In this document: positions 6-51,122 of the stretch, one piece after another
How the letters are laid out: every line of letters starts with the position of its first letter
Numbering within the stretch: position 1 is the stretch's first letter
Origin: Glaciecola nitratireducens FR1064
Lineage (GTDB): Bacteria > Pseudomonadota > Gammaproteobacteria > Enterobacterales > Alteromonadaceae
Direction: 5' to 3'
Assembly: GCF_000226565.1 (NCBI RefSeq)
Contig: NC_016041.1
Location: 3,162,001-3,226,000 of the forward strand
Length of the DNA: 64,000 bases
Made by a program: the position numbers and the translations under genes
Notes under the pieces: model-generated
Seen by the model: the letters and a program-made list of their open reading frames with translations, nothing else
What the model was told of the DNA's origin: nothing
Databases searched by the model: none

Positions 6-36
6 AGACACACCTGTTTCACAATAAGGTGTGTCT
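6..36. repeat. Inverted pair of the GGTGTGTC element before the aldehyde dehydrogenase gene
   Basis: AGACACACCT (6-15) and AGGTGTGTCT (27-36) are perfect 10-base inverted arms around an 11-base loop. The pair ends 19 bases before the ATG at 56, so it probably lies in the 5' leader or promoter of the next gene, or terminates a gene left of the window. The core is the same one dispersed through the rest of the window. Confidence 0.85.
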
Positions 37-55
37 TTATAAAAGGACAATAATC

Positions 56-1492
56 ATGACAAAGCTAGCGAAACAATATCCCTACTATCTTGCAAACAAA
101 GCTGTGTTTGCCAATCAAGACTTAGAAGTAACTAACAAATATACAGGCGAAGTCGCCACAACGGTTGCGCTGGCTGACGCAGAGATAATAGATAAAGCCA
201 TTGATGCGGCTGAAAAAAGTCAGAAAATTCTGAATAAGATGCCTCCTTACAAGCGCCAACAAATATTAGAGCACTGCGTAACAAGATTTAAAGAACGATT
301 TGATGAGCTCGCTTATGCTTTGTGTATCGAAGCAGGAAAACCGATTAAAGATGCGCGCGGCGAAGTAACAAGGCTAATTGACACCTTTAAAATTGCTGCT
401 GAAGAGTCAGTACGAATTGAAGGAGCGGTAATTAACTTAGAAATTACCGAGAGAGCAAAAGGATACCAAGGACAATACAAGAAAGTACCGATTGGCCCTT
501 GTTCATTCATTTCGCCCTTCAATTTTCCTTTAAACTTAGCCGCTCACAAAGTCGCACCTGCGATTGCTGCTGGTTGTGCTTTTGTATTAAAGCCTGCAAG
601 CAGAACGCCAATAGGAGCGCTCATTATTGGTGAAGTACTTGCCGAGACAGACTTACCCGACGGTGCATTTTCAATACTCCCTTGTAGCAGAGATGGCGCA
701 GATCTATTCACAACTGACGACCGCTTCAAGCTATTAAGCTTTACAGGTTCACCAAGCGTAGGTTGGGAACTGAAAGCAAAAGCGGGCAAAAAGCCTGTCA
801 TCTTAGAATTAGGCGGCAACGCTGGCTGCATAGTCGACCATGATACCGATCTTGATGACGCTATCGAACGAATCGTCTTTGGTGCTTATTATCAATCAGG
901 CCAGAGCTGTATTAGTGTGCAGCGGATTTTCATTCATGAATCAATATATGAAAAATTCAAAGCTGCTTATAAAGAAAAAGTGGCGAACTTGGTTCACGGT
1001 GATCCTCTAAACGAAGATACATTCATCGGTCCAATGATTTCTGAATCAGAAGCTAAACGTCTTGAAGGCTGGATAAAAAATGCAGTTAACGCCGGAGCAA
1101 AACTGCTCTGTGGCGGCTCAAGAGAGGGACTTATGCTGCAAGCCGCATTGCTTGAAGACGTGCCTAGAGACTGCGAAATAAATGCCGAGGAAGCATTTGG
1201 CCCGGTATCTACCATTGCGCCGTTTTCCGATTTCGATGAAGCGTTAAAACAAGTCAACGATAGTCAATTCGGTTTGCAAGCGGGTATCTTTACAAAAGAC
1301 ATTTACAAAGCTCATAAAGCTTGGGATGAACTAGATGTAGGTGGCGTAGTTATTGGTGATGTGCCTAGCTGGCGTGTTGATAATATGCCATACGGAGGAG
1401 TAAAAGAATCAGGGCTCGGTCGCGAAGGTATCAAGTATGCGATAGAAGACATGACTGAGATTAGGTTAATGGTTTTGCGCACACCGCAATAG
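56..1492 (+). CDS. NAD(P)-dependent aldehyde dehydrogenase family protein
   Basis: This cytosolic enzyme should oxidise an aldehyde to an acid using NAD(P)+. At 478 residues it has the usual family length. Visible are the FNFPLN segment, the LELGGN motif carrying the general-base glutamate, and the catalytic cysteine in SGQSCISVQR. The C-terminal PYGGVKESGLGREG motif is also typical. ATG 56 is chosen because AAAGGA lies about 8 bases upstream; the longer reading from GTG 29 would start inside the inverted repeat. The overall look is of the lactaldehyde or succinate-semialdehyde dehydrogenase branch, but the substrate cannot be told. It stands alone, followed by a hairpin terminator. Confidence 0.9.
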   Translation: MTKLAKQYPYYLANKAVFANQDLEVTNKYTGEVATTVALADAEIIDKAIDAAEKSQKILNKMPPYKRQQILEHCVTRFKERFDELAYALCIEAGKPIKDARGEVTRLIDTFKIAAEESVRIEGAVINLEITERAKGYQGQYKKVPIGPCSFISPFNFPLNLAAHKVAPAIAAGCAFVLKPASRTPIGALIIGEVLAETDLPDGAFSILPCSRDGADLFTTDDRFKLLSFTGSPSVGWELKAKAGKKPVILELGGNAGCIVDHDTDLDDAIERIVFGAYYQSGQSCISVQRIFIHESIYEKFKAAYKEKVANLVHGDPLNEDTFIGPMISESEAKRLEGWIKNAVNAGAKLLCGGSREGLMLQAALLEDVPRDCEINAEEAFGPVSTIAPFSDFDEALKQVNDSQFGLQAGIFTKDIYKAHKAWDELDVGGVVIGDVPSWRVDNMPYGGVKESGLGREGIKYAIEDMTEIRLMVLRTPQ

Positions 1493-1537
1493 CAAGCAGG
1501 CGGAACTTACATCAATGATGTGAGATTCTGCACAAGG

Positions 1538-1576
1538 AATGCGACTCATATCAAGATGGACTTAGAGTCGCATTTT
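1538..1576 (+). terminator. Probable terminator after aldehyde dehydrogenase
   Basis: AATGCGACTC (1538-1547) pairs with GAGTCGCATT (1565-1574) across a 17-base loop, followed by a short T run. It sits 46 bases past the stop codon. The long loop and weak T tract lower confidence. Confidence 0.5.
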
Positions 1577-1654
1577 CATTTCAGCTAAACTTGTATGCAA
1601 GCACAGATTACGATTGGGCTTGCATTACATTACTCTGTTTTTGTTCCCTTTATT

Positions 1655-2491
1655 TCAACTATCCGGCTCTACATGCACAGTTGTGTCGTGAATATTGAAC
1701 TGTTGCGCTAACATATTCTCAATCTGGTCAGCAATATTGTGAGACTCAAGCAACGATAGTTTAGCCTCCACAGCAACCGTAACATCAGCGAAGTGTTGCT
1801 TTCCCATACTTCGTATTCTGAGTTTTTTCACCGACGTAACATTAACTAATTGCTTAATGCTTTTTTTTACAACACCGTGATCAAAGTGACTTTGATCCAC
1901 TAAAATAGGCACCGCTTTTGAAAATAAACGATACGCTAGTACACCAATCATAACCGCCACAATGAGCGCAAACAAAGTATCAACCCAGTACAAGCCCAAA
2001 GCAGCTAGTTGCCATCCGACAATAGCAGCAACCGACGTTAGGACATCACTAAACGTGTGACTGGCATCAGCATGCAAGAGATCTGATTTAAGTTTCTTGG
2101 CCCAATACCTCTCCCAAAGGGATAGCGTTAAATTAATGACAACAGCAACAACGAGCACAATCAAACCGACCTTGTTTTGCTCAACTACGTCTGACGACCT
2201 AGAAATTGCCCTAATTACCACTTCAATAGCAACAACAAAAAGTAATGTTGCCAAAAAAAATACCGCTAGTTGTTCAAACTTTTGATGACCATAGTGGTGA
2301 TCATCGTCCGCTGGTTTTTCGCTCATTCTAATTGCTAAAAAAGCAACGACGTTGTTAATAAGATCAGTAAACGAATGCAGAGCATCTGCCGTAAGTGCCG
2401 CCGAACCCGTAATTATGCCGACGATAAGTTTAGTCACAATCATCAATAGGTTAACCAGACCTTCTATAATGAGCACGCGTTTTACATTCAT
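1655..2491 (-). CDS. Cation diffusion facilitator family metal efflux protein (FieF-like)
   Basis: A 278-residue inner-membrane antiporter expected to export divalent metal (Zn2+, perhaps Fe2+) against protons. The PADDDHHYGHQKFE segment after TM2 and a C-terminal cytoplasmic domain follow the FieF layout. The transport-site residues read H39-x3-D43 in TM2 and H145-x3-D149 in TM5. E. coli FieF has Asp-Asp in TM2, so the HD-HD set here looks more like zinc CDFs. It is divergent from rsuA, and a perfect FNR-type box lies in the shared upstream region. Confidence 0.88.
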   Translation of the reverse strand: MNVKRVLIIEGLVNLLMIVTKLIVGIITGSAALTADALHSFTDLINNVVAFLAIRMSEKPADDDHHYGHQKFEQLAVFFLATLLFVVAIEVVIRAISRSSDVVEQNKVGLIVLVVAVVINLTLSLWERYWAKKLKSDLLHADASHTFSDVLTSVAAIVGWQLAALGLYWVDTLFALIVAVMIGVLAYRLFSKAVPILVDQSHFDHGVVKKSIKQLVNVTSVKKLRIRSMGKQHFADVTVAVEAKLSLLESHNIADQIENMLAQQFNIHDTTVHVEPDS

Positions 2492-2593
2492 TTATCTCGG
2501 CCTAGTGATAATTCTGATAGAAAATAAGCATCGCTTGTTTGATAGTAAGCATAACAACCCAAGCGATAATACAGCGTTACAAAAGTAGTGTGA

Positions 2594-2607
2594 TTGATGC
2601 TGATCAA
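2594..2607. promoter_or_regulatory. Perfect FNR/Anr-type box between CDF gene and rsuA
   Basis: TTGATGCTGATCAA matches the FNR consensus TTGAT-N4-ATCAA at all ten specified bases. It is centred about 109 bases upstream of the CDF start and 120 bases upstream of the rsuA start, so either divergent gene could be the target. Confidence 0.55.
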
Positions 2608-2720
2608 GCCCTTCCAACTAAGTTTTACTATATTTGTTCATATGACAATAATCAGCCGTTGACAGTTAACATATCGAAAAGCTAAGGTCTTGTCCTTTAT
2701 TATCCTTGCTATTACTTACC

Positions 2721-3410
2721 ATGCGCCTCGATAAATTTGTTTGCAAAAGTACAGAGTTGACAAAAAGCCAAGCAATCGAATGTATCAAGCTTGGAGAGAT
2801 ATACGTGAATGGCAAAGTCATCACGAATGGAGCGACTCAGGTTCATGAAAGTAATAAGGTAGCCTGGAATGAGCAAACGCTAAAAGCACGCGGTTTTCGT
2901 TATATTTTGATGCATAAACCAGCCAATACGATTTGCTCAAATGTTGATGAAGTCTATCCCTCAGTGTTCAATTATCTACCCGTTGAAAAGCTCTCAGAAC
3001 TTCATATTGCCGGACGTTTAGATGCCGATACAACCGGATTAATTTTGATTACTGATGACGGCCGCTGGTCATTTTCTATTACCAGGCCATCGCGAAATTG
3101 CCCTAAAGTGTATCGAGTTCACTTGTCAAAAGAACTAACAGCCGATGCTGCTATCGCATTAAAAAAAGGTGTGCAGTTGCAAGGAGAGCAACAATTAACA
3201 CGGCCTGCAACTTTACAAAAAATCGGTTCGCGTGAAGCATTGCTGACCATTACAGAAGGTAAGTTTCACCAGGTAAAGCGCATGTTTGCTGCTGTCGGTA
3301 ATCGCGTGGTTTCGCTTCACAGAGAAAGAATTGGAGATATTCATCTTGATGTTGAAGTGGGTCAGTGGCGTTATTTAACGGATGATGAAGTGAAGTCTTT
3401 TGTAAACTAA
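2721..3410 (+). CDS. rsuA: 16S rRNA pseudouridine(516) synthase
   Basis: It isomerises uridine 516 of 16S rRNA during 30S assembly. The 229 residues match the family length (231 in E. coli). An S4-like RNA-binding domain (MRLDKF..., residues 1-60) precedes the synthase domain with the catalytic aspartate in AGRLDADTTGL, followed by the conserved KFHQVKRMFAAVGN segment. ATG 2721 begins the typical MRLDKF; the TTG at 2706 would only add five residues. No strong ribosome-binding site is visible. Confidence 0.93.
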   Translation: MRLDKFVCKSTELTKSQAIECIKLGEIYVNGKVITNGATQVHESNKVAWNEQTLKARGFRYILMHKPANTICSNVDEVYPSVFNYLPVEKLSELHIAGRLDADTTGLILITDDGRWSFSITRPSRNCPKVYRVHLSKELTADAAIALKKGVQLQGEQQLTRPATLQKIGSREALLTITEGKFHQVKRMFAAVGNRVVSLHRERIGDIHLDVEVGQWRYLTDDEVKSFVN

Positions 3411-3751
3411 ATTGAAGCCAATATTTGCAAAATAAAATACTAAAAGTCTGTTTTATCCCTCGCATAGAGAGTGACAAAGCAGTTGACGGTGCATTAGCTT
3501 CGGCTAGAAAGAACTGAGATAAAATACAACGATAAAGGTGTATTTTTGAAACATTCGCTCACTCTCCGTATGCCCTCACCACGCCTAATACCTTTTAAGA
3601 CCTTATCTCTTATTGTTTAAAAAACTGCATAAACCCAAACTCATCGTTTTTTACGATTAGAACAACTGGTTTTACTTATTGTCTTTTGGTATATCTTATA
3701 ACTATTATAAGTTTGTCCTTTGGCACAACTTACAATATTTGGAGAATACAA
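3411..3751. other. Gene-free stretch
   Basis: About 340 AT-rich bases between rsuA and the peroxiredoxin gene. I see no convincing ORF, hairpin or copy of the dispersed element; it presumably holds the peroxiredoxin promoter. Confidence 0.5.
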
Positions 3752-4402
3752 ATGAGTGATACAAATGAAAAAACAACGCAGTTTCCGCAACTAAATAAGC
3801 CTGCACCCTACTTCGATGCAAAAACAACACACGGTCAACGTACATTAGAAGATTATAAAGGAAAGTGGCTGGTACTTTTCTCTCATCCTGCAGACTTTAC
3901 ACCTGTTTGCACCACTGAGTTTATTGCGTTTGCTGGTGTCGCGAAAGAATTTGCGGACATGAATACTGAACTATTAGGCTTATCAATTGATAGTGTTCAC
4001 GCTCACATTGCATGGGTGCTTAACATTAAAGAGAAATTCAATGTCGATATCCCTTTCCCAATTATTGCCGATCTATCCATGGATATAGCAAACTCATATG
4101 GCATGGTTCAGTCGGGCGCTAGCGATACTTCAGCAGTGCGTGCTACCTTTATTATTGACCCAGAAGGTATATTGAGAGCAATGGTCTACTACCCAATGAG
4201 TAATGGGCGCAGTGTTGATGAGTTTGTGAGACTGGTTAAAGCAATGCAAACTAGCGATGCTAATTCAGTAGCAACCCCAGAGAACTGGAAAGAAGGTGAA
4301 GAGGTGATTGTCCCGCCGCCACATACTGTCGCCGATGCTAATGGCCGAAAAGAGAAAGGCTATAACTATGTTGATTGGTATTTCAGCAAAAAATCGTTGT
4401 AA
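3752..4402 (+). CDS. 1-Cys peroxiredoxin (Prx6-type)
   Basis: A 216-residue thiol peroxidase that reduces hydrogen peroxide or organic peroxides in the cytosol. The peroxidatic cysteine is C53 in HPADFTPVCTTEF. No other cysteine occurs, so it is a 1-Cys enzyme needing an external thiol; the long C-terminal extension after the thioredoxin fold agrees with the Prx6 group. ATG 3752 is chosen over the upstream ATG 3686 because GGAG lies 8 bases before it and the extra 22 residues look non-native. It is distinct from the AhpC/AhpF pair at the right end of the window. Confidence 0.9.
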   Translation: MSDTNEKTTQFPQLNKPAPYFDAKTTHGQRTLEDYKGKWLVLFSHPADFTPVCTTEFIAFAGVAKEFADMNTELLGLSIDSVHAHIAWVLNIKEKFNVDIPFPIIADLSMDIANSYGMVQSGASDTSAVRATFIIDPEGILRAMVYYPMSNGRSVDEFVRLVKAMQTSDANSVATPENWKEGEEVIVPPPHTVADANGRKEKGYNYVDWYFSKKSL

Positions 4403-4414
4403 CCAAGACCGATT

Positions 4415-4450
4415 GAGTCCGAGACCTATCTCGGACTCCTCACCTTTTTT
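4415..4450 (+). terminator. Terminator after peroxiredoxin
   Basis: GAGTCCGAGA (4415-4424) and TCTCGGACTC (4429-4438) form a perfect 10-bp stem with a 4-base loop. Six T residues begin at 4445, a few bases after the stem. Confidence 0.8.
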
Positions 4451-4594
4451 GCTGCACCCTGCAGCTTTTCTAACGATGCCGTCTCAGATTTATTTAAAGG
4501 AATTCGTGGCACTGAACTATGGCCTCAAACTTGCTAAACAATGTTTACTATATTACCGACATACAAGCATCGTATATAAGGCAAAGGAAAAATC

Positions 4595-5017
4595 ATGAAA
4601 GCAAAACTAGTTATTGGATTGTTGTTGGTCAGCTCAGCTGCTCTAGCAAGTGATGAAAACATTGCGTCAACGGACGCGCGAACACCGATTAATTTGAACG
4701 TTCAGCAAAAAGATTTTGTTCTGGAACGGATGCGTCGGATGTTAGAAACACTAACCGGTATCCAGCAATCTTTAGTGCAAGGATCACCAGAAAAAGTGGA
4801 TAATTTAGTAAGCTTACTATTTGAATATACGAGAGAAAATCATCCTGATGGTTTACATGACTCAATGCCAGTTGGATTTCAACAAATGAGCAAACAAATG
4901 AACAGTCAATGGAAAGCGCTAGCCAAAGAAAATACAGATGCGGTGCTAATACAAAAAGAAATTGTGACAATTATGTCTACATGCAACGCGTGCCACCGCT
5001 CATATAGAATTGAGTAG
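4595..5017 (+). CDS. Putative periplasmic cytochrome c'/c556-like haem protein
   Basis: A 140-residue protein with a Sec signal peptide (MKAKLVIGLLLVSSAALA, cleavage near ALA-S). A helical body ends in a single C-terminal CNACHRSYR, which is the CxxCH haem-binding motif with the following residues seen in cytochrome c'/c556 proteins. It likely binds one covalent haem c in the periplasm for electron transfer or gas binding. A ribosome-binding stretch AAGGAAAA precedes the ATG. No cytochrome partner is adjacent. Fold assignment is from the motif position and length only. Confidence 0.7.
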   Translation: MKAKLVIGLLLVSSAALASDENIASTDARTPINLNVQQKDFVLERMRRMLETLTGIQQSLVQGSPEKVDNLVSLLFEYTRENHPDGLHDSMPVGFQQMSKQMNSQWKALAKENTDAVLIQKEIVTIMSTCNACHRSYRIE

Positions 5018-5281
5018 CTTTTGCGTTAGGCGAACAAGATGAGACAGAACGCAAGAATCGTTTGAATGGTGTCGAATATGTCATTCTTATTGTCGAATTT
5101 GTCATTTTTAAAGTAAATAAAATTAGAAATTTTCGCTAGGTTTTAAAAATATTCTATAAATCAACCGTATTTCACTCTTTTAAATGTGGTACAGCAATTG
5201 CTAAACGCCTATGCAACCTGCAAAAAATTAGCCTTATGAGGCACATTTTTCAAGCCGACAAACCAGACAAGAGAGCATCCC

Positions 5282-5968
5282 ATGAAAAAATTAATTGCGC
5301 TGAGCACGATTTTATTGACTCTATTTATCCTAAACGCGTGCGGCGGAAGCTCAAACTATACACCCCCACTAGTCGAAGTTGACTTAGATGGTTCAACCAC
5401 AATTAACTCCAATACACTTGCCAGCAACCTCAATAATATTCTGCCAAGTGATTTATCAGCTGCTGAAGAGGAAAGCCTAGCCTTTATGCGAGAAGAGGAA
5501 AAGCTAGCCAGAGATGTATATACCGCCCTACATAACATATACGGGCAAAAGATATTTACTAATATTGCTGCAAGTGAGCAAACCCACACAGACGCTGTTC
5601 TTGCGCTTATTGAACGATATGAATTAGTCGATCCAATGCAAACTGATACTTTTGGCATATTTGTCAATAGTGAACTGCAACTCATCTACGATACGCTGGT
5701 AACATCAGGCTCAATTTCACTGTTAGAGGGTTTATTTGTTGGTGCTACCGTTGAGGAGTTAGATATTTATGACCTACAAAACCAAAAAGACAATGTAATT
5801 GATAACGCTGACATTATTTACGTTTACGATAACTTGTTGAAGGGCTCTCGCAATCATCTGCGCTCGTTTGATAAGCAAATCAAAAATAATGGTGGGGTTT
5901 ATACTCCGGTTTATATTAGCCAAGAGCTATACGACAGTATTATTAACTCTTCAATAGAAAGAAACTAG
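5282..5968 (+). CDS. DUF2202 domain lipoprotein
   Basis: A 228-residue protein with a lipoprotein signal peptide ending in the lipobox LNAC (Cys about residue 20). It then has a low-complexity linker and a DUF2202 domain from about residue 58, starting LSAAEEESLAFMREEEKLARD. The Glu-rich helices (EEEKLARDVY, then AASEQTHTDAVLALIERY) resemble ferritin-like metal-binding helices. Its function is unknown; it should be anchored in the envelope. It is monocistronic by spacing. Confidence 0.85.
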   Translation: MKKLIALSTILLTLFILNACGGSSNYTPPLVEVDLDGSTTINSNTLASNLNNILPSDLSAAEEESLAFMREEEKLARDVYTALHNIYGQKIFTNIAASEQTHTDAVLALIERYELVDPMQTDTFGIFVNSELQLIYDTLVTSGSISLLEGLFVGATVEELDIYDLQNQKDNVIDNADIIYVYDNLLKGSRNHLRSFDKQIKNNGGVYTPVYISQELYDSIINSSIERN

Positions 5969-6068
5969 TATGAAAAGGCGTTCATTATTGCTCGAATTAG
6001 ATTGCTGTTTCCTCTTGACAGAGGCTAACTTAGCGCTGCGGTTTTGCCAAAAAGAACAGTCGTAAATA

Positions 6069-6920
6069 TTAACAATACTGAAAGTGTTCCATATATCCAG
6101 ATAAGCCAGTATTGTGATTATTCTCAAATGCAATGAGTTCATCATAACAGTAGCTTGGGCCCTGTTTACACGCGTAACTACTGCCTATGTAACAATGACC
6201 ACAAAGACCGACACCACAGCGCATCCTGCGCTCAATAGACAGCCAAATATCTGAGCTTTCAAAACCTAAACCTAAGCACATTTTTGCAATATCTTTCATC
6301 ATCGCTTCAGGTCCACAAGTGAGCAGCATATTAGGCTGGCGATGACATTGACTTAATACAGTAGAAAGATATTGCGTCGGTAGTCCAGAATGGCCCCTAT
6401 CACCTTGAGTATCGAGTGTTTCAAATACCTTAATTTTTGAATTCCAGCGAGCCCTTTCCTGTTTTAGCACTTGCGACTCTTTGTCTCGAGCAGCATATAA
6501 AAGCGTGACCGAAGCAGCTCTACCGGCCTCTATTAAATAATCAATTGCGGTTGAAACTGGCGCTAAACCACATCCACCAGCCACAATTAGCACTTCTTTT
6601 TGGTGTATTTGTGCCACTGGCCAACCATTACCATGAGGTCCGTTGTATCCCAAAAGGTCCCCTTTCTTTAAGGTGAATAATTTATCAGTTAATTTTCCTA
6701 CCTTTCTAATAAGCGCCGTAAAGCGACCTTGATTATCGGGAAGTGAAGTATACGTAAATGGCGCTAATCCTGCGCCTGGAACAGTCAACATAAAAAATTG
6801 CCCAATCGCAATAGGCTCTTTATGTGCAAAGCCTTTAGGCTCAAAAGTAAAATGTCGACTGTCTGTTCCATCTTCATAAAAATCGACTATGCGAATAGTT
6901 TTCGGAGTTAATTGCAGCAT
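6069..6920 (-). CDS. FAD/NAD(P)-binding electron-transfer subunit (HydG/AsrB-like)
   Basis: A 283-residue ferredoxin-reductase-like subunit expected to pass electrons between NAD(P)H and the Fe-S subunit encoded just upstream. N-terminal FAD-binding barrel with APFTYTSLP, then the nucleotide-binding segment IVAGGCGLAPV. The C-terminal cysteine cluster CGVGLCGHCYIGSSYACKQG binds [2Fe-2S], as in sulfhydrogenase gamma and anaerobic sulfite reductase B. Its start overlaps the previous gene by 13 bases, indicating translational coupling. The physiological direction and NAD versus NADP preference cannot be read. Confidence 0.85.
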   Translation of the reverse strand: MLQLTPKTIRIVDFYEDGTDSRHFTFEPKGFAHKEPIAIGQFFMLTVPGAGLAPFTYTSLPDNQGRFTALIRKVGKLTDKLFTLKKGDLLGYNGPHGNGWPVAQIHQKEVLIVAGGCGLAPVSTAIDYLIEAGRAASVTLLYAARDKESQVLKQERARWNSKIKVFETLDTQGDRGHSGLPTQYLSTVLSQCHRQPNMLLTCGPEAMMKDIAKMCLGLGFESSDIWLSIERRMRCGVGLCGHCYIGSSYACKQGPSYCYDELIAFENNHNTGLSGYMEHFQYC

Positions 6921-7990
6921 ACTTGATCAATCCTTTTCATAACAGAATGGACACCAATTGTGCCTGGGCAAGTTTGCTCACACCGCCCACATCCGACGCA
7001 ACCATATCGATTAAACTGGGGAAGGTATTCGTCCGAAAACTTATGAAACCAAAACCGTTCTACTCTTTGAGCTGCATTACTACTGGGGTTATGCTGGCTA
7101 GCCTCACGCTGAAATGATTCAAATAGGCACGAATCCCAAAGGCGGACTGTTTTTGATTGCGCCGTTCCTGAACGCGCTGTGTTAGCAGCTGGCTCTGGTT
7201 CAATAACTTCAAAAGTACTATAACAAGAGCACGTGGGACAAAGGCTTGTGCAACCCGAGCAACTCAAACATCTAACACTCAATTCCTCCCATAATTCAGC
7301 CGGAATTGAGTTATCGTTTAGGTACTCAATTGCATTGGTAATATAGCCAAAGTCGGCAAACTTAGAACGTACTTTATGACCTAGTTTGGTTCGCAATTTT
7401 AGGTGCTCTTTTTCCGCTTTTTCGAGCTCAATATGCTGCAAGCTATGTGCGCCTTTTTCGCTCGTTGCAACAATAAGCCACTGAGATATATTTGATTGTT
7501 CATAAGTGTTCAAACGGCTTACTATCAAATCTGAAGTTTCACTATTAACATGTGGGCCAGCATTCACCTCTGGACAAAAACCGTTTTCACAAGGAGCCTC
7601 GCAATCAATGCCAACCAACAGCACACTATTGCGCCTTTTCTGATAGTAAGGGTCGTGTCTGAAAAACTGATCTTGGTATGCGATTGCCGTTAAATCGCAA
7701 GCTTGAACTCCCAACAGGACAATGGGTTTAATCTCCGGCTGTATGGTTTCAAAAGTATTTCCATCAAATTTATATAAAGGCTCTTGCTCTGGGAAGAAAA
7801 ATGCCTTCGGAGAGCTCAGCGGCAAATGAGCATGGCCAAACAAAGGCTCAGTAGCCCCTTCATCTGCTTCAGCCCAATACACTTCATTAGTGCTGCCTTT
7901 AGTCAGCTGCACCACTGTGTAATGCTTAGCAAGATGGTTGCTTAATAGGCTTAAATCGTTGAGTAAATAGGCATCGTTAACCATGTTCAT
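6908..7990 (-). CDS. 4Fe-4S dicluster electron-transfer subunit (HydB/AsrA-like)
   Basis: A 360-residue protein resembling the beta subunit of sulfhydrogenases and AsrA of anaerobic sulfite reductase. Two C-terminal cysteine clusters (CLSCSGCTSLCPTCSC and CVGCGRCEQTCPG) should hold two [4Fe-4S] centres linking the flavin subunit to the molybdopterin subunit. The conserved LLGVQACDLTAIAYQD segment lies near residue 95. It follows the formate dehydrogenase gene by 9 bases and overlaps the flavin subunit gene, so all three are one operon. No hydrogenase or sulfite reductase gene is present, so its partner here is the formate-dehydrogenase-like protein. Confidence 0.85.
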   Translation of the reverse strand: MNMVNDAYLLNDLSLLSNHLAKHYTVVQLTKGSTNEVYWAEADEGATEPLFGHAHLPLSSPKAFFFPEQEPLYKFDGNTFETIQPEIKPIVLLGVQACDLTAIAYQDQFFRHDPYYQKRRNSVLLVGIDCEAPCENGFCPEVNAGPHVNSETSDLIVSRLNTYEQSNISQWLIVATSEKGAHSLQHIELEKAEKEHLKLRTKLGHKVRSKFADFGYITNAIEYLNDNSIPAELWEELSVRCLSCSGCTSLCPTCSCYSTFEVIEPEPAANTARSGTAQSKTVRLWDSCLFESFQREASQHNPSSNAAQRVERFWFHKFSDEYLPQFNRYGCVGCGRCEQTCPGTIGVHSVMKRIDQVCCN

Positions 7991-7999
7991 TCCTTTGGC

Positions 8000-10105
8000 T
8001 TATTGAACAACTCTGTTTTCTATATTGTTTGATATAGAAGAAGGGTGAGGCGATTGATTGTCTGGCAATGGGACAAGCCTAACTGCACAAACCTTAAGCT
8101 CTGGCATTTCAGTTGTAGGGTCCATCGCATCATTTGTTAGTAAGTTAGAAGGTGCCTCTTTAAAATGGTAAGGCATACTCAGCAAGCCCGGCACCAGTTG
8201 ATCGCTCAAAACAATACGTGTTTCAAGGTAACCTCGCCGAGAAGAAACAGTTACCGCTTGATGGTTTTTTAAGCCAAGATCCACAGCATCTTGAGGGTGA
8301 ATAAACAGCATCCCGTTTGGTGTCTCTCGCTCAAGTAAAGGCGATTGGCGAGTCATGGAACCACAACCATAATGATAATGCAGTCTTGTCGTCGTAAACC
8401 AAAAAGGATACTCAGCATTAGGTTGCTCATCACTGGACACTTGATCAACCGCAATAAGCTTTCCTTTTCCGATGGGAAATACATTAGTGTGTAGCCAACG
8501 AGTGCCCATTGGGTGCTCAGCGTTGCATGGCCATTGCAAGCCGTTTCGTTCAGCCAAATGAGCGTAATTCATCCCACTGAACGAGTTAGTCAATTGCGCC
8601 ATTTCATCAAAGACCTGCTCGCTACTTTGCCAATTCATCAAATTACCTGCGCCCATGGCTTTGGCAAGCGCACAAAGTATTTGCCAATCAACCTTAGCTT
8701 CTCCTGGTGGTTCAATGGCTTTATGGATTAGTTGAACTCGGCGTTCGCAGTTTGTGAAGGTTCCTTGTTTTTCAGCAAAACTAGCAGCAGGCAAAATAAC
8801 GTCTGCCATTTTGGCTGTTTCAGTCATAAACAGCTCCACAACCACCAGCATGTCCATCGCCCTCATGCCCAGTTCAACCTGATTACGATCAGGGTCGGTT
8901 ACAACAGGATCCTCACCAAAAATAATTAGCCCTCTGAAATTACCATTGCGCGCCTGATTGCTCATTCCAAGTGAGGTTAACCCTGGTGCTTTGGGCACAT
9001 TAGTGCGCCAAGCACAGCTAAACTTGGCTCGAACTTTTTCATCAGCCACACTTTGATAATCCGGATACACGTTGGGCAAACTTCCCATGTCACAGGCACC
9101 CTGCACATTATTTTGCCCGCGCAAGGGATTTATACCCGTGCCTTCCCTACCAATTTGTCCACAAACAAGCGCAAGATTTGATACTGCAATTACATTATTT
9201 GTACCACTGATGAATTGCGTAATTCCCATTCCGTAAGCAAGAAAAGCGGCATTTGCTTGGCTATATAGTTTGGCAGCTTCGACTAACTTTTGACCTTCCA
9301 CCCCAGTCAGTTTTACAACTTTTTCGAGGGAATAATTAGCAACATGTTCTTTCAATGCGTCTACGCCCTCGCAACGGCGCGCAAGAAAGTCACCGTTTTG
9401 CCAATTATGCTGAAAGATAATATTCAGTAAACCATTCAACAGCGCGATGTTGCTTCCGATCTTAAGCTGCAGATGCAAATCGGCAATCTGTGCAAGGCGG
9501 GTTTGGCGAGGATCGATAACAATAAGTTTAGCACCTCGAAGCTTTGCCCGCATAATGTGCCCGCCAATAATTGCATGATTTTCGGTAGAGTCTGCGCCGA
9601 TCACCAAAATGACGTCGGCCTTGCTCACGTCATCGATACTGTTTGTCATTGCACCCGAACCTACCGTTTGTTTCAGGCCCACAACTGAAGGGCTATGACA
9701 AATTCGCGCGCAATGATCAACGTTATTGGTTTTTAATACGGCCCGAGCAAACTTTTGTGCGGCGTAGTTATCCTCGTTTGTTGCTCTCGCACTGCTAATT
9801 ATGCCTACAGTTGAAGAGCCACTTTCACTTATAAAGGTGTTTAAATTTTTTGCGATATAGGATAGAGCCTTTTGCCAAGTCACCGTTTCAAATAGCCCAT
9901 TCTTTTTCATTAACGGTTGAGTTATACGATTATGCTTATTTATCCCAAATGGGGTATTCCACCCCTTGGCGCATAACTTACCTTGGCTAATGGGGTGCGC
10001 GCTAATTGGCTTTACAGCGTTTATAGTGCCGTCTTGCACAACGAGGCACATACCACAGCCGACCCCGCAAAATGGACATATGCTATTAACGTGAGTTTGA
10101 CTCAT
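8000..10105 (-). CDS. Formate dehydrogenase-like molybdopterin oxidoreductase, catalytic subunit
   Basis: A 701-residue cytoplasmic-type enzyme (no Tat signal) that should oxidise formate to CO2 at a Mo or W bis-pterin site. The N-terminal [4Fe-4S] ligands are C10, C13, C17 and C45. HCARICHSPSV near residue 136 aligns with the E. coli FdhF segment in which selenocysteine binds the metal; here it is cysteine, so no Sec machinery is needed. The conserved histidine follows directly. ATG 10105 is preferred over GTG 10135 because AGGG lies about 6 bases before it. The expected electron acceptors are the two following subunits. An FNR box lies about 66 bases upstream. Confidence 0.88.
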   Translation of the reverse strand: MSQTHVNSICPFCGVGCGMCLVVQDGTINAVKPISAHPISQGKLCAKGWNTPFGINKHNRITQPLMKKNGLFETVTWQKALSYIAKNLNTFISESGSSTVGIISSARATNEDNYAAQKFARAVLKTNNVDHCARICHSPSVVGLKQTVGSGAMTNSIDDVSKADVILVIGADSTENHAIIGGHIMRAKLRGAKLIVIDPRQTRLAQIADLHLQLKIGSNIALLNGLLNIIFQHNWQNGDFLARRCEGVDALKEHVANYSLEKVVKLTGVEGQKLVEAAKLYSQANAAFLAYGMGITQFISGTNNVIAVSNLALVCGQIGREGTGINPLRGQNNVQGACDMGSLPNVYPDYQSVADEKVRAKFSCAWRTNVPKAPGLTSLGMSNQARNGNFRGLIIFGEDPVVTDPDRNQVELGMRAMDMLVVVELFMTETAKMADVILPAASFAEKQGTFTNCERRVQLIHKAIEPPGEAKVDWQILCALAKAMGAGNLMNWQSSEQVFDEMAQLTNSFSGMNYAHLAERNGLQWPCNAEHPMGTRWLHTNVFPIGKGKLIAVDQVSSDEQPNAEYPFWFTTTRLHYHYGCGSMTRQSPLLERETPNGMLFIHPQDAVDLGLKNHQAVTVSSRRGYLETRIVLSDQLVPGLLSMPYHFKEAPSNLLTNDAMDPTTEMPELKVCAVRLVPLPDNQSPHPSSISNNIENRVVQ

Positions 10106-10164
10106 AAACAGCCCTACTGGTTTATCAATTGACACCTATTACAGTAGACTGTGATAAAAAAAAA

Positions 10165-10178
10165 TTGATGCTTATCAA
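10165..10178 (-). promoter_or_regulatory. Perfect FNR/Anr-type box upstream of the formate dehydrogenase operon
   Basis: TTGATGCTTATCAA matches TTGAT-N4-ATCAA exactly. It is centred about 66 bases upstream of the chosen formate dehydrogenase start, a plausible activator position for anaerobic induction. The remaining 377-base divergent region to 10482 also holds an imperfect palindrome TGATAAGAAATTATCA at 10273-10288 and no ORF. Confidence 0.65.
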
Positions 10179-10482
10179 TATTCTGATATTTAAGTGGTTT
10201 ATCACTTATTACTTCTACTTGAACAAGATGTAAACAACCGCAAACCGTCAAGCAACAATAAAGTACTATTCTTGATAAGAAATTATCACACGATTGCACA
10301 GTAGAATGTTTTTGAAATAGTAAATTCAACACAGCGATGTATGGGCTGCATCACACTATTCAGCTAGGATGGTGTTATTAAACAGATACTTCCCAACATT
10401 TGGCTGTGTTACACTCCGCACCCCTCGATAATGGCTACTGTTTAGCTCGTTATTTTTGCTATTACATTAGGTAAAATAGGTT

Positions 10483-10827
10483 ATGTCAGATAAATTTTTT
10501 TTCATGGGCCGTCAAGATCCTCGCCAGAGTCACATTAAATATGGAAACGATAAAAAGCCAAATACGAAGGCTGGTAGTAAAAAGTACCCGTTAACTTTAA
10601 TCGTCACTAGTGAAGTCAGAAAGCAAGAAGTTGAGGCGCTAATAGCAGATGCTAACTTGTATGCTGTTATCAACATCGACAATAGCGAAGGCGCGGTTGA
10701 GTCAATAGATGAGCTGAGTGCGATTTTAAGCAAAGCTGAGACTGTAACTGTAAACAAAGTTACGCTGCGCAATGATCCGTGTGTTTGTGGTAGTGGTAAA
10801 AAATATAAAAAGTGTTGTGGTAAATAG
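10483..10827 (+). CDS. PBPRA1643-type SEC-C/SWIM metal-binding motif protein
   Basis: A 114-residue protein ending in CVCGSGKKYKKCCGK, the zinc-binding SEC-C motif also found at the end of SecA. The N-terminal part (MSDKFFFMGRQDPRQSHIKYG) matches a conserved small family in marine gammaproteobacteria. The molecular role is unknown; the motif suggests zinc and perhaps protein or ribosome binding. It is divergent from the formate dehydrogenase operon and stands alone. Confidence 0.85.
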   Translation: MSDKFFFMGRQDPRQSHIKYGNDKKPNTKAGSKKYPLTLIVTSEVRKQEVEALIADANLYAVINIDNSEGAVESIDELSAILSKAETVTVNKVTLRNDPCVCGSGKKYKKCCGK

Positions 10828-11024
10828 GTACCGTTGAAGTGAGCCAAATCGCGCGGTTACTCAGTGTTGATACGCTTTGATTTATTGGAAGCTAGATTGG
10901 GAACGACAGCCATCGCTGCGCCTAGCGTTGGCTTTATACTAATCAATCTTAATAGTGGCAGAATATGCGACGTTATCGCTGTTTTAAATAACTGACGCTG
11001 TAAAGTAAGCAGCCACGGTATTGC

Positions 11025-11849
11025 TCAGTTTACTTCCTTATTTCTTTGATAAATAAGGTGATACACCAGCCCCACAAATACGCCGCCACCCATCAAATTT
11101 CCGCAGATAACCAACAATACGTTTTTCATAAAGTCGTAAATCGAAATCACATTCGAGCCGATTTCAACAACAGCAAAGTATTGGATTAGTAAGGTAACAG
11201 GGTAGAAATACATGTTTGCCACACTATGCTCAAAACCTGCAGCAACAAACCCAGTAATAGGAAAAATAATCGCAATGATTTTGTCGGTTACTGTTTTTCC
11301 AGCCAGCGTCATCCAAACGGCCATACACACCAAAATATTACATAGCACGCCTCTAAAGATGGCCTCCGTAGTAGATAACCCTGTTTTTGCTGCCGCAATA
11401 TTGATGTACTGTTCAGCAATTGCACCGTCGTTCATAAGCAAATGCCCAGACAAAAAAACGAGCACTGCCATGCCAATCGCCCCGATGAAATTGGCAATAC
11501 ATACCACCAGCCAATTTCTTAAGAGGTCATATAAAGAAATCTTTTTGTCTGCCCATGCCATCACAATTAGGTTATTACCAGTAAACAGTTCTGCACCAGC
11601 CACAACCACTAAAATAAGACCGAGACAAAAGGCCAAGCCTCCTAATAGTTGAGCACTGGCAAAGCTTAGGGTGGGGTCTGATTTTACTAAGACATACAGC
11701 ATACCGCCAAGCCCAATAAAAGCACCGGCTAAGACGCCTAACATTACCAGTGGAATGAAAGCGATTTTTGCTTTTCTTACGCCAACTTCGTCAACTTTAA
11801 CTGCGATTTGTGCGGGTGAATAGGCACTAAATCCAAAAATATCGTCCAT
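11025..11849 (-). CDS. Formate/nitrite channel family (FNT) protein
   Basis: A 274-residue inner-membrane pentameric channel protein of the FocA/NirC family, about six TM helices. The AELFTGNNLIV segment and the GFEHSVANMYFYP segment are signature FNT regions, the latter carrying the central pore histidine. ATG 11849 is preferred to 11873 because GAGGGGG lies directly upstream. It follows the acyl carrier gene by 50 bases as the last gene of the acetyl-CoA operon. With a formate dehydrogenase next door, formate is the likely substrate, although nitrite or acetate cannot be excluded. Confidence 0.9.
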   Translation of the reverse strand: MDDIFGFSAYSPAQIAVKVDEVGVRKAKIAFIPLVMLGVLAGAFIGLGGMLYVLVKSDPTLSFASAQLLGGLAFCLGLILVVVAGAELFTGNNLIVMAWADKKISLYDLLRNWLVVCIANFIGAIGMAVLVFLSGHLLMNDGAIAEQYINIAAAKTGLSTTEAIFRGVLCNILVCMAVWMTLAGKTVTDKIIAIIFPITGFVAAGFEHSVANMYFYPVTLLIQYFAVVEIGSNVISIYDFMKNVLLVICGNLMGGGVFVGLVYHLIYQRNKEVN

Positions 11850-11899
11850 TTTTCCCCCTCTAGCGGAAATCACTGTTCTTAAATGTAGATTAATAACTG

Positions 11900-39530: not shown

Positions 39531-39691
39531 AATAAGGACACACCTGTTTAATCATTTATCACCGAAATGTCTAAACAGGTGTGTCCTTATTCAGAGTAAT
39601 AACTCATCGCAAACGCCCAAACAGGTGTGTCCTTATTCAGCACTCCTCATTCAGCAATAACTCAACGCAAACGCCCAAACAGGTGTGTCCT
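39531..39691. repeat. Inverted and direct copies of the element with 20-base perfect arms
   Basis: AATAAGGACACACCTGTTTA (39531-39550) and its exact reverse complement (39572-39591) form a 20-bp stem with a 21-base loop. Two further forward cores follow at 39624-39631 and 39682-39689. These lie in 58-base direct repeats with flanks CGCAAACGCCCAAACAGG. The first hairpin starts 8 bases past the upstream stop codon and could terminate transcription. The rest of the 330-base gap before 39853 has no gene. Confidence 0.93.
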
Positions 39692-47436: not shown

Positions 47437-47469
47437 AGCATGAAAGCCCTGCTAAAGGGCTTTCATGCT
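47437..47469. terminator. Hairpin between the regulator gene and tamB
   Basis: AGCATGAAAGCCCT (47437-47450) pairs perfectly with AGGGCTTTCATGCT (47456-47469) across a 5-base loop. It lies between convergent genes and touches the tamB stop, so it may serve both. It lacks a long T run. Confidence 0.7.
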
Positions 47470-50400
47470 TAGTCCTTACTGGTGATTTGATAATACAAAT
47501 CGAGCGTGTTGTTCACTCCACTCACCGCTTCAAGGTATACTTGAGGGAGCAATTGATAGTGAACACTCACCTCACTTATAGAATCAAATACACCAACACC
47601 GTATGTGATTTTCACGCCTTCAGCAAGTTGTCCTGAAAGTTCGACTTTAGTGCCTTGACCTTGTCCAGCAGTTTGCAAGTTCAAATCTTTCACACCTAAT
47701 TTTTGGCCTAAGCTACCGATACCATTCTCGCTTTGCCCTACACCAAAACTGACGAGCGCGTTAACCATCGTAGTTTCTTCCGAATTACCCGAGCCGCCCC
47801 CAAAAGTACCAGCACCAGTTATCAGATAAGACAGTTGTTTAGCTTGCTCCATTGATGGCTCAGAAAAAAGATCCACAGAAGGCTTGATCGCGTTGCCGGT
47901 GACTCTAATACCTGCAATTACTCCATCATTTGTATTTAATGGATTACGAATAGCTTCGATATCGAATGCAGGAACGTCAGGTTGCCCACTAAAAGTGATT
48001 TCTCCTTTCCTGATCTGAAGAACTTGAGAATAGGCTTCATAGCTACCTTTAAGGACTTGAACAAGACCATTTACCCTGGTATTTTGCGCATCTACTTGAA
48101 CCCGTAGGTCACCACTTAACTCTGCTTTTAAATCCAAAGCGTCAAGTTTCACCTCTCCCTTCTTATCTTTATCAATTAATATATTAAGGTCTACGTCGAT
48201 AGGCAATTGCCCTTGCTTTGCCACCTTCTTCTCATCAACCACAATAATGTCTTGAGAGGGCGATTTTGCGCTAGGCGGTAGTGACTTAATTTTTACTCTG
48301 GCATAAGGTACGTCGACCTTCCCTGAAATAGACAACAGTTCAGGCGATAGTTTGATCTTCAAATCAGGAGATACTTTAAATTTGTAAGTCTCATACGCAA
48401 TATCGAGCTTATCGCCGGCAACCATAATATTAACAATAAGATCGTCAGTAAAGTCGACATCACCCTCTACGCTGCCTCTTCCTTCGCCCAGCACAAACTG
48501 CCCAGAAAAATCAGCTTTCGAACCATCAAATACAACTTTTTGGTTATAATCGGCCAACTTTAAAGGATATTCTTTTAGCACAACGGCACCGTCTGCGATA
48601 ACCAGCTGCCCTTGTAGTGATGGTTTTTCTATTGGCCCGTCGAACGTTATGTTAGCGTTAATATCACCATTTAAATCTTTAACTGCAGTTACAAAAGAAG
48701 CAAAATAAGACACCGCAAATTGGTTAATATTAATGCTCCCTTTATGTTGATAGGGCTGGCTTGCCAAATCTAATTGGCTATTAATCACAACGCGACCAGC
48801 TTCGGTACTGCTAAAGCTGAAATTACTATTGATATTCTTGGGCGTTCCTTGAACCTTAGCTACAATATCCTCGATGCGAACTTTACTTCCTTCCGAAACC
48901 AAGACAGCATTCTCAGATAAAACGTCGGCAGAAAAATTAAGTCCTTGTTGCTTCTGCCAGTCAACATTAAGGTCGATATTCACATTTAAAGCAGAAGCAT
49001 CTATATCAAAGTTAGGTAAAAGCTTCGCTACCCCCTCGTTCATCACGTTATAATCTAGCACAATCTTTGTTTTGGCTTTTTGTTCTGATGCGTCGATATC
49101 TTCTGTACATAGTCTATCTCCGCGCCCTTCCCAACAGTGCCCTGCAAGATACAAACTAAATGGCTGCAGGTTTACCGTCAAATCAGGCTGATCTTGCAAT
49201 ATAAGTTCTGCAAAACTAGATAGGACCTTTCCCTCTAACCACTTGCCAGACCAACTTGTATTGTCAGCGTTTAACTGACCTCTAAAAAATTGCTCTGTAA
49301 TATATTCACCTTCAGGAATACTCAGCCGCAGGGATTGCTCACTCTCATTACCACTCAGCAGGACATCAAGTTGTGGAATATTCTGTCCGCCAGCAAACAG
49401 GTTTGAAATGGATATTTGCGCGCTAGACGCTAACTTTTCCGCCATATTAACGCTGAGGTCAATGATAGCTTCTTCTAAGCGCGCGTCGGCTGCGCTCAGC
49501 TCCTTCACATTCGCTTGTACAACGATTTGAGGAGTCTCTATAGCTCCAGACACATTACCTTTTGCAAAAACCTGACCGTCCAAACTCGGATAGATGTCAC
49601 TTAAAGCATTTAAATCGATGGTGAAGTCGAGACTGGAATCGCTTGTTTTGTTTTTATCTGGAAACTTTACGCCTAACTGCGCAATAGATTCGAGTGCTGT
49701 TGTAGAATAAAGATTACCTTGCACGTTTAACTGATTGTTGCCCTGAGTTAAACGGACGCCTTCGACTTTCACGTTGCCACTTTTTTCTAATTCTGCATCC
49801 GCAACTAACAATAACGGCAAATTTTGCCATGCACCGCTTAATCTCGCTCCGTTGACGGCCACTGACTGACTTGCCTCTGTAATGGTAAAACTATGTGGTA
49901 ATTGACCAGAAATCAAAGAATCTAACGCAGGATCTAACTTTGACAATTGGATAGATTCGAGGTTTAGAGTGCCATTGAAGGATAGTTCATGCAGCTCATT
50001 GTCTTTAGACGCTATTGTAGCTTTCCCTGCATAATCAAGCTCACCAACGCTGCCACTTAGATTGAGTTTTTGAATATCGATAAGAGAACGCGCCCCTTGC
50101 TTTGCACCCATCGGTTTAACTAGCGCATTGAGTTCAAAATTTTCAACACCCATAATTTCTTGCATTTTAACCATGCTGGTCAATCGATAACCCTGCATGT
50201 CCCCGCCTATTTTTGTTTGCAACAAAGACACACCTTTCACCTGCGAAATCACTTCATCGCTGAGCGAAGGAAACAAAGTTTGCAGATCATCAGCAATAAC
50301 AGCCGATAACTCTTCAAATTTAATATCAAGTTCAAGAGGAAGTGTTGGTTTTGACAACTCAAGAGTGGACGCTAAACCAAGCATTTTTTGCTGACTTGGC

Positions 50401-51122
50401 AAATGCGTTAGCGCTGCGTTGAGCTTGTTGATGTTTCCTTGGCTTTTGAATTGGAAACCGCTTGTGTTGTCGAAAATAGGTGTGTCTTGTTTAGCCGCCT
50501 CTTGTTTAGCCGCCTCTTGTTTAGCCGAGCTCTCTTTCGAAGCAACTACGGCAATAGGTGTGTCTTTATTGTGCGCGGTTAGCGTTAAATTGTGTTCAAA
50601 CTTTTTCGCGAAATTTACTGCTGCTGTCATTTTTAGATTTAGCGGCGTAAACATTGGCGTTTCTGTGCCTTGATGTAAATTACCCATGACAATGCTGGTA
50701 TCTACTTTTTGATTAATTATCGCCAAACTGAGCGCTAAACTGTCATTGCATAAAATCGTTTCGATTGAATCGTCTTGTACCTGCTGACGAATGCAAATAT
50801 TTCGCAGCATTGAATTTTTAAGCGTTAACTCAATTGGGATATAAATCTCTGGCAAAACAATGGGCTCATATCGATAGTTTGCAATTGCGCTCAACCACTC
50901 TCTAGGTTTTTGCCCTGCCCTTGGGCTAACCTTATTTTCATTAAGCTCGGCGTCCGCCGGCTTGGGTAGCCGCACATCAAGAGAATCAAGGTTTAACTTA
51001 GATATATTCAGTTGGTCTTGAAAAGATAAAGCCAACAAGAAGCCCTTAAGCTTTAGCAACTCAGCGCTGTTTTGGGAAACTAAAACTTCACCCACACTGA
51101 GTTCATTTAGCGTAATTAACAC
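47469..51122 (-). CDS. tamB: TamB, main part (continues the N-terminal frame by a -1 shift)
   Basis: The inner-membrane-anchored, periplasm-spanning partner of TamA. This 1217-residue frame holds the beta-helical body and the C-terminal DUF490/TamB region (ITYGVGVFDSISEVSVHYQL near the end). Its formal GTG start at 51122 is not a real start: the preceding frame 51116-51520 supplies the signal anchor. A -1 shift at the A7 tract (51138-51144) joins the two as TEKKLLTLPVLITLNELS. Three copies of the dispersed element and a 15-base tandem repeat lie in the N-terminal third. Confidence 0.9.
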   Translation of the reverse strand: MLITLNELSVGEVLVSQNSAELLKLKGFLLALSFQDQLNISKLNLDSLDVRLPKPADAELNENKVSPRAGQKPREWLSAIANYRYEPIVLPEIYIPIELTLKNSMLRNICIRQQVQDDSIETILCNDSLALSLAIINQKVDTSIVMGNLHQGTETPMFTPLNLKMTAAVNFAKKFEHNLTLTAHNKDTPIAVVASKESSAKQEAAKQEAAKQDTPIFDNTSGFQFKSQGNINKLNAALTHLPSQQKMLGLASTLELSKPTLPLELDIKFEELSAVIADDLQTLFPSLSDEVISQVKGVSLLQTKIGGDMQGYRLTSMVKMQEIMGVENFELNALVKPMGAKQGARSLIDIQKLNLSGSVGELDYAGKATIASKDNELHELSFNGTLNLESIQLSKLDPALDSLISGQLPHSFTITEASQSVAVNGARLSGAWQNLPLLLVADAELEKSGNVKVEGVRLTQGNNQLNVQGNLYSTTALESIAQLGVKFPDKNKTSDSSLDFTIDLNALSDIYPSLDGQVFAKGNVSGAIETPQIVVQANVKELSAADARLEEAIIDLSVNMAEKLASSAQISISNLFAGGQNIPQLDVLLSGNESEQSLRLSIPEGEYITEQFFRGQLNADNTSWSGKWLEGKVLSSFAELILQDQPDLTVNLQPFSLYLAGHCWEGRGDRLCTEDIDASEQKAKTKIVLDYNVMNEGVAKLLPNFDIDASALNVNIDLNVDWQKQQGLNFSADVLSENAVLVSEGSKVRIEDIVAKVQGTPKNINSNFSFSSTEAGRVVINSQLDLASQPYQHKGSININQFAVSYFASFVTAVKDLNGDINANITFDGPIEKPSLQGQLVIADGAVVLKEYPLKLADYNQKVVFDGSKADFSGQFVLGEGRGSVEGDVDFTDDLIVNIMVAGDKLDIAYETYKFKVSPDLKIKLSPELLSISGKVDVPYARVKIKSLPPSAKSPSQDIIVVDEKKVAKQGQLPIDVDLNILIDKDKKGEVKLDALDLKAELSGDLRVQVDAQNTRVNGLVQVLKGSYEAYSQVLQIRKGEITFSGQPDVPAFDIEAIRNPLNTNDGVIAGIRVTGNAIKPSVDLFSEPSMEQAKQLSYLITGAGTFGGGSGNSEETTMVNALVSFGVGQSENGIGSLGQKLGVKDLNLQTAGQGQGTKVELSGQLAEGVKITYGVGVFDSISEVSVHYQLLPQVYLEAVSGVNNTLDLYYQITSKD
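50227..50234 (-). repeat. Element copy in tamB, opposite orientation
   Basis: GACACACC, read on the coding strand as KGVSLLQ rather than KDTP. It shows that the element also occurs in the other orientation within a gene. Confidence 0.65.
50479..50564 (+). repeat. Two element copies flanking a 15-base tandem repeat inside tamB
   Basis: Cores at 50479-50486 and 50557-50564 encode KQDTPIF and NKDTPIA. Between them, about 2.8 copies of a 15-base unit TTGTTTAGCCGCCTC (from about 50486 to 50529) encode repeated EAAKQ. The whole segment looks like a recently expanded, tolerant linker. Confidence 0.85.

Follow-up and report, generated by a model that had tools for sequence, protein, structure and literature searches.

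The 64,000-nucleotide stretch of the Glaciecola nitratireducens FR1064 chromosome analysed here (NC_016041.1, positions 3,162,001 to 3,226,000; hereafter the window) carries a gene for a protein resembling the repetitive extragenic palindrome (REP)-associated tyrosine transposases. A first-pass annotation, made from the letters alone, had noted that a short element with the 8-mer core GACACACC is dispersed through the window about 15 times above chance. We found that this motif, whose fuller core is the 9-bp word GACACACCT, is concentrated around the transposase-like gene, and that motif and gene go together across Glaciecola genomes. Copies inside host genes appear mostly to have arisen by base substitution and are kept at the DNA level, points that the annotation had missed, as it had the centring on this gene. 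The features of the window are as follows (coordinates, strand, description; ORF, open reading frame; related genomes are given as G numbers).

7–35, unstranded: inverted motif pair, + then − (exact matches)
1655–18085, unstranded: 16-kb island, 14 ORFs tested, motif-free, not found at the corresponding position in five relatives
18255–18304, +: two intergenic motif copies (exact matches)
18631–18638, −: motif inside a GNAT acetyltransferase gene, reading NKDTPI
19458–19465, −: motif inside ORF 18878–19522, reading NKDTPH
20125–20132, −: motif inside epmA (VLDTPVCEK), aligned without gaps to two genomes lacking the gene at this locus
20339–20346, −: motif inside epmA in a different frame (KTHLFLQTSP), gap-free against three genomes
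21453–21460, +: motif inside epmB (EYKDTPGF; G005 has EEFEEVSGF), gap-free against four genomes
22853–23018, unstranded: array upstream of the transposase-like gene, one + copy and four − copies, three spaced 23 bp
23147–24148, +: TnpAY1 subclass 2.3-like (REP-associated tyrosine transposase-like) gene, centre of the motif cluster (profile match, alignment, structure model)
27523–27530, +: intergenic motif copy
27960–27967, −: motif inside a YqiA-like esterase gene, in a variable loop with indels (HNKDTPI)
28774–28781, −: core with G instead of T at position 9, close to the start of ORF 28193–28807
28820–28827, −: intergenic motif copy
29130–29137, +: motif antisense to ORF 28828–29445 (EVCHRE), perhaps chance
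36778–36785, +: core without T9 at the end of ORF 35020–36804 (SDTPPKRKK), perhaps chance
36871–36984, +: three tandem motifs; a 10-bp tandem duplication before the first ends at its 5' edge
39537–39689, unstranded: array, one + copy then three − copies
50227–50234, +: motif antisense to ORF 47469–51122 (KGVS)
50479–50516, −: motif in ORF 47469–51122; a 15-bp tandem duplication abuts its 5' edge (AAKQE repeats)
50557–50564, −: motif in ORF 47469–51122 (HNKDTPI)

The transposase-like protein is 333 residues long. No Pfam model matched it at an E-value of 0.001, and the NCBIfam model NF047646 (REP-associated tyrosine transposase) matched with E 1.7e-10 and 40.9 bits, under its curated cut-off of 80. 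In a 40-sequence alignment, the HUH residues N75, H76 and H78 (N75-H76-x-H78, the NHxH form) were invariant, as were W170, Y191, L194, N195 and P196, and E171, V192 and D193 were present in at least 90% of sequences, giving the WE and YVDLNP motifs. Given the invariance of Y191, the presumed catalytic tyrosine of YVDLNP, we dropped the idea of a dead nuclease; dN/dS of the gene was 0.07 for G007/G009 and 0.13 for G008/G009, with three other pairs saturated. The predicted structure had a mean predicted local distance difference test score (pLDDT) of 87.4, and its best match in the PDB was 4er8 (E 1.3e-4, probability 1.00; template-modelling score just 0.59 by target length), a REP-associated tyrosine transposase bound to a REP hairpin, consistent with the HUH fold of TnpAREP. 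A sequence-profile search of solved structures found no relative, its sole match being a dynein (E 0.043). Judged by length, motifs and host, the protein fits TnpAY1 subclass 2.3, which a published survey describes as about 325 residues long, with HUH, W and Y signatures, from Chromatiales or Alteromonadales (Quentin et al., 2018; PMC6006769). The middle residue of the HUH motif is Y in the consensus given there, whereas it is N in the window protein.

Every one of the 30 listed starts of the 8-mer proved to be an exact match, and the motif does occur singly, in tandem and as inverted pairs, both in genes and between them. The reported stretches free of GACACACC were likewise found, at 36–18254 and beyond 50564. 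Dinucleotide shuffles of the window gave a mean of 0.69 copies (maximum 4) rather than the roughly 2 that the annotation had expected, so the excess is genuine but about 43-fold, not 15-fold. Its doubt about the copy at 36778 was reasonable, as T is missing at position 9, and the copy at 29130, which it also doubted, may be chance. A wider consensus, said to be common to intergenic and coding copies, was recovered between genes (tAAyAArGACACACCTrTTT) but not within them. Between 3.055 and 3.235 Mb of the genome, 34 of 58 copies were intergenic and 24 lay in ORFs, one of these in an unaligned ORF and 23 in aligned coding sequence, where only the 9-bp core GACACACCT was held in common.

The annotation had correctly taken this for a real short element, for which it knew no named family; what 'dispersed' had missed was its locality. 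The whole genome (4.13 Mb, one contig) contains 64 copies of GACACACCT, compared with four of the reversed control word. Fifty-two of the 64 lie within 125 kb of the transposase-like gene (genome position 3,185,600), where 3.9 would be expected, and 40 lie within 50 kb; the remaining 12 are spread over about 3.9 Mb. When copies less than 150 bp apart were merged, 31 of 43 groups were still within 125 kb. Density was 1.4 per kb within 5 kb of the gene, 0.3–0.4 at 5–40 kb and 0.02 beyond 130 kb, with a fitted decay length of about 36 kb. This locality ruled out a genome-wide small dispersed repeat. We also rejected an attC array of an integron, as the neighbours resemble ordinary operons and housekeeping genes, and an RNA family, as Rfam at gathering thresholds gave just an L31 ribosomal protein leader (RF03157, window 59564–59615).

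The gene and the motif were then compared across Glaciecola. The gene is present in nine of 13 genomes, our own included. Close homologs (65–81% identity) occur in four of the 12 others, exactly those with 51–67 copies of GACACACCT, and in all four the copies cluster around the gene; the remaining eight genomes have 17–22 each. Among 60 relatives counts ranged from 0 to 67, the highest outside the four being 37 (G020, another genus). In all ten neighbourhoods (our own and nine homologous ones, at three loci) the top enriched 8-mer belonged to or overlapped a related motif: GACACACC in five, GGACACACC in G012, GGACACGC in G006 contig 7, and GGACAGTC in G006 contig 10, G002 and G004. Per 10 kb, GACACACCT occurred 2.8–3.6 times in its five regions, 0.75 times in G012 and 0–0.11 times elsewhere; GGACACGC 2.1 times in its region and 0–0.25 elsewhere; and GGACAGTC 2.5–6.9 times in its three regions and 0–0.33 elsewhere. 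GGACACACC overlaps GACACACCT and reached 0.25–1.3 in the GACACACCT regions, and these two words are not independent. The epmB regions of four genomes without the gene there showed no enrichment of GACACACCT (0–0.11 per 10 kb). Three motif types thus go with their own genes, and G006 carries two of the genes, each at its own locus and with its own motif. Motif density dropped several-fold with distance in eight of the ten neighbourhoods. We regard the link between motif and gene as firm and have little doubt of it.

The three gene loci lie by epmB, by purD-purH and near panB; of the genes considered, purD, purH, panB and those for TamB, a DEAD-box helicase and a methyltransferase go by their customary names. 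At locus L092 (G004 contig 111, 13668–15509) a purH-like gene in a single 619-residue frame matches in two pieces, suggesting that some 280 bases have been inserted in frame, in a stretch where motif copies occur.

The island at 1655–18085 provides an internal control. We did not find it at the corresponding position in G007, G008, G009, G010 or G012, where the flanking genes are a few kb apart, and 12 of its 14 tested ORFs had no match in the regions of the relatives covered, the other two having weak matches elsewhere. At 5–21 kb from the gene, it contains no copies where neighbourhood densities would give 5–6. Newly arrived DNA has not gained the motif.

Within 40 kb of the five genes associated with GACACACCT, the exact word was counted 151 times, about 70-fold the 2.1 expected, whereas one-mismatch words numbered 70 against 55.6 and two-mismatch words 563 against 615; the expectations were derived from other Glaciecola regions totalling 887 kb. 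G012 had 35 exact words against 0.27 and 13 one-mismatch words against 7.6. A single enriched variant was seen in each of two regions, GGACACTCA in G006 contig 7 and GGACAGAC in G002; apparent GGACTGTC variants in G004 and G006 contig 10 were largely the same sites on the other strand and were therefore not counted. GGACACTCA (10 against 0.2 expected) was found as a second variant together with GGACACGCA in G006 contig 7, 25001–145000. The neighbours GATACACCT, GACATACCT and GACGCACCT were absent against 8.5 expected, a number too small for inference, and all transitions together numbered 23 against 23.4. Degenerate copies are few; in a set of old transposed repeats many would be expected.

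Traces of breakage were found at one edge of the motif. In the five GACACACC genomes, 22 of 199 copies have a tandem duplication of 10–23 bp that stops exactly at the 5' edge (in one of the 22, the duplicated 23-bp unit includes the motif), and one of 199 has such a duplication at the 3' edge, compared with 48 of 20,000 random positions in all ten regions. Between the close pair G008 and G009, 29 of 42 G009 copies with alignable flanks were conserved; among the differences are changes of a single base, 15-bp duplications abutting the 5' edge, and motif-holding units of 23 and 35 bp. Close motif pairs in the five genomes (n = 72) comprised 43 tandem, 29 convergent (+ −) and no − + pairs; four − + pairs occur in other motif regions, one in G006 contig 10 and three in G004.

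Copies inside genes were conserved as DNA. In gap-free alignments, coding copies were fully conserved in 14 of 22 cases in G007, 10 of 22 in G008, 15 of 22 in G009, 9 of 14 in G010 and 6 of 12 in G012, compared with 7–13% for control words of the same composition in these five gene-bearing genomes. G005 and G002, without the gene at this locus, conserved 0 of 10 and 0 of 8 (controls 3%). Identity at third codon positions was 0.80, 0.78, 0.80, 0.83 and 0.58 inside the motif in G007, G008, G009, G010 and G012, respectively, versus 0.50, 0.52, 0.53, 0.45 and 0.36 in the flanks (Fisher p = 8e-5 for G007 and 2e-4 for G009); the corresponding values were 0.45 versus 0.39 in G005 and 0.28 versus 0.37 in G002. 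The synonymous difference (pS) in the transposase-like gene between our genome and G007 was 0.80.

Against genomes lacking the gene at the given locus, 64 of 78 ortholog-aligned coding copies were gap-free over 17 residues; this analysis covered seven of the ten neighbourhoods (G004, G007 and G008 left out) and the 78 of 250 copies that could be aligned, the rest being intergenic or matchless, with orthologous copies counted repeatedly. The outgroup differed from the motif at 4–6 positions in 93 of 149 gap-free alignments. Clear cases of base change are EpmB (EYKDTPGF versus EEFEEVSGF), EpmA in G012 (CFRDDEVGTHHNPEFTM versus CFRDDEIGRYHNPEFTM) and a methyltransferase-like protein (GCGNGVIGVS versus GCGNGVLGIS). 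Other coding copies lie in variable loops with indels, such as NKDTP in the YqiA-like gene and the AAKQE repeats of ORF 47469–51122. As sites alter residues in EpmA, EpmB and other proteins, the force behind them is probably not trivial.

A profile scan of genome contigs found at least 587 relatives of the gene, the best 80 of which were kept; they include loci in Alteromonas, Colwellia, Marinomonas, Shewanella, Pseudoalteromonas and others. Plain word ranking gave motif-like words in only part of these 80, and we then pooled the flanks of 77 loci, leaving out the Glaciecola loci L133–L135. Within 400 bp either side of the gene, GACACCC was the top flank word (107 against 4.8 expected, in 45 loci), oriented as in terminal inverted repeats: 60 + and 1 − upstream, 1 + and 45 − downstream. 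Among 51 informative pairs of homologous elements, again with L133–L135 left out, 18 had their left boundary on a motif-class word, compared with 13 of 1020 random offsets, and in those 18 the alignable part of the element starts at the 5' edge of the motif. From this inverted orientation and these boundaries, the motif resembles the ends of a mobile unit in other genera and a local field of sites in Glaciecola. Sixteen of 62 long loci exceeded the 99% level of the null: L133–L135, three with unrelated words (L167, L179, L194), and ten with motif-like words (L140, L143, L150, L153, L170, L177, L190, L192, L199, L208).

At many loci the best flank word was unrelated to the motif. Near the subclass 2.3-like genes of L147, L159, L185 and L194, words unlike the GACA motif were strongly enriched (ACGGCCG, 15 against 1.1; TCGAAGA, 17 against 2.2; GGAACAA, 18 against 2.0; GAAGATA, 16 against 2.6). 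GCCACCC or GCCAGCC replaces GACACCC as flank word or element start among L142, L147, L159, L170, L174, L181 and L208.

The motif shares features with several known systems. Like the REPs, REPINs and BIMEs of canonical REP-associated tyrosine transposases (RAYTs), it is a repeat specific to an HUH-family gene, with inverted pairs and arrays, and copies flank the cognate gene (the array at 22853–23018; pooled flanks of the 77 loci). Its clustering resembles the local concentration of REPs reported in Thauera (PMC2817692) and Marinomonas (PMC8266576). It differs in its exact 9-bp core, its cross-species conservation at the DNA level, and the lack of a long palindrome common to the coding copies: the consensus has no GT[AG]G foot, and the copies are not mostly extragenic palindromes of 20–40 bp (24 of 58 lie in ORFs, where only the 9-bp core is found). 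TIRtrons (Di Nocera et al., 2013; PMC3733652) are described as carrying inverted repeats around a tyrosine transposase gene (TIRYT), as in the other genera here. Repeats on both sides were seen in the pooled loci, whereas the window gene has no close downstream copy, and the TIRtron consensus GGGGWSAS is not the GACACCC/GGGTGTC found here. Twenty of 26 TIRYTs were assigned to subclass 2.1, and for subclasses 2.1 and 2.3 the survey reports that automatic and manual searches gave no REP-like sequences (PMC6006769); here, a short motif both flanks and surrounds a subclass 2.3-like gene. The DNA uptake sequences of Neisseria (PMC2397512) are likewise short exact words far more conserved than their surroundings and, like our motif in the island, are reported to be absent from recently acquired genes. 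However, they are described as genome-wide and read by an uptake machinery, whereas the motif is confined near one nuclease-like gene. Preferential formation of REPs near rayt genes was proposed earlier (Nunvar et al., 2010, PMC2817692; Marinomonas, PMC8266576), so locality alone is not new. As far as searches of openly licensed papers and the survey's own statement show, three points are new: subclass 2.3 gains a motif, the motif arises within genes through base changes, and it is conserved as DNA.

Taken as a whole, the observations are best explained, in our view probably, if the nuclease recognises and nicks the motif, and if selection or drive maintains the sites that have gathered around its gene. 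The mechanism, to which we lean slightly, would run as follows. GACACACCT would be the cognate recognition site of the subclass 2.3-like protein, putatively bound by it and probably nicked at the 5' edge; the end-like orientation, the boundaries, the duplications and general knowledge of HUH enzymes lead us to this step. In other genera GACACCC, a motif of the same kind, stands inverted to either side of the gene, much as mobile-unit ends do. Within Glaciecola, the gene may have settled, with exact sites accumulating over some 40 kb on each side, some arising inside host genes through base substitution and others between genes through small duplications. The sites would then be kept by selection or by cis-acting drive with the nuclease gene, as conservation, exactness and locality suggest. 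A more specific version, which we put forward tentatively, is a gene-centred drive in which a resident HUH nuclease gathers exact recognition words in host genes by base substitution. Under it, and we offer this too as a conjecture we would not yet bet on, the words are held more tightly than surrounding synonymous positions because gene-linked sites favour nicking, transfer or conversion of the chromosome stretch and the nuclease gene, making them a local counterpart of uptake sequences.

One rival is ordinary REP-like transposition, along the lines proposed for canonical REPs in Thauera and Marinomonas: a small unit would be copied into new places by the protein, with a preference for the vicinity of the protein's own gene. 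Intergenic arrays, tandem units and the NKDTP loop insertions look insertion-like, and the published cases near rayt genes set a precedent (PMC2817692, PMC8266576), but we think it unlikely, since 64 of the 78 aligned coding copies show no gap, some of them within stretches of protein that are strongly conserved, degenerate copies are few, and the nearby island is empty. A purely mutational origin, with the nuclease making short templated replacements that write the motif near its gene without benefit or drive, would suit outgroups that are 4–6 positions away from the motif and duplications that suggest local breakage. We consider it distinctly improbable: conservation despite heavy synonymous divergence needs continued maintenance, and exact in-frame replacements in conserved stretches would require tracts of equal length. 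On a third view, the motif is bound by some unrelated host protein or serves as a regulatory signal, and lies close to the gene by coincidence. This view could draw on the intergenic inverted pairs, whose arrangement would permit hairpins; with a related motif in 10 of 10 neighbourhoods at three loci, and three motif types following their genes, we give it very little credence. The sharp regional confinement might also suggest an imported island with its own word use. This is the least credible account, as most tested window ORFs outside 1655–18085 have syntenic matches (up to 96% protein identity) and the sole island found is motif-free, which also excludes it as the carrier of the motif.

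Several observations weigh against a nuclease site gathered around its gene and kept there. The window gene has no exact motif copy within 3 kb downstream, and orientation bias inside the Glaciecola clusters is mild (upstream 131 + and 93 −, downstream 36 + and 55 −; p = 0.003). G006 contig 10 and G004 (60 and 19 kb covered) show no clear drop in density beyond 5 kb, and for the other motifs a 5'-edge duplication was seen in just one of 131 copies. Copies in related genomes are partly orthologous and their counts not independent, the 10 and 8 coding copies in G005 and G002 are small samples, and some gap-free alignments are poor, one running through a stop codon. In other genera, right boundaries fell on the motif in just one of 14 pairs, leaving the right end unconfirmed, and a motif-like word was enriched across about 20 kb, flanks included, in just 10 of 59 long non-Glaciecola loci.

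The enzyme family is poorly understood. A recognition site gathered around its nuclease gene would give each of the relatives encoded in at least 587 stretches a predicted target, together with a readable history of site gain. Nature would also supply a test of how a short site spreads next to a nuclease gene, whether through selection, drive or mutation; the same question has been discussed for uptake sequences (PMC2397512) and is posed for REPs.

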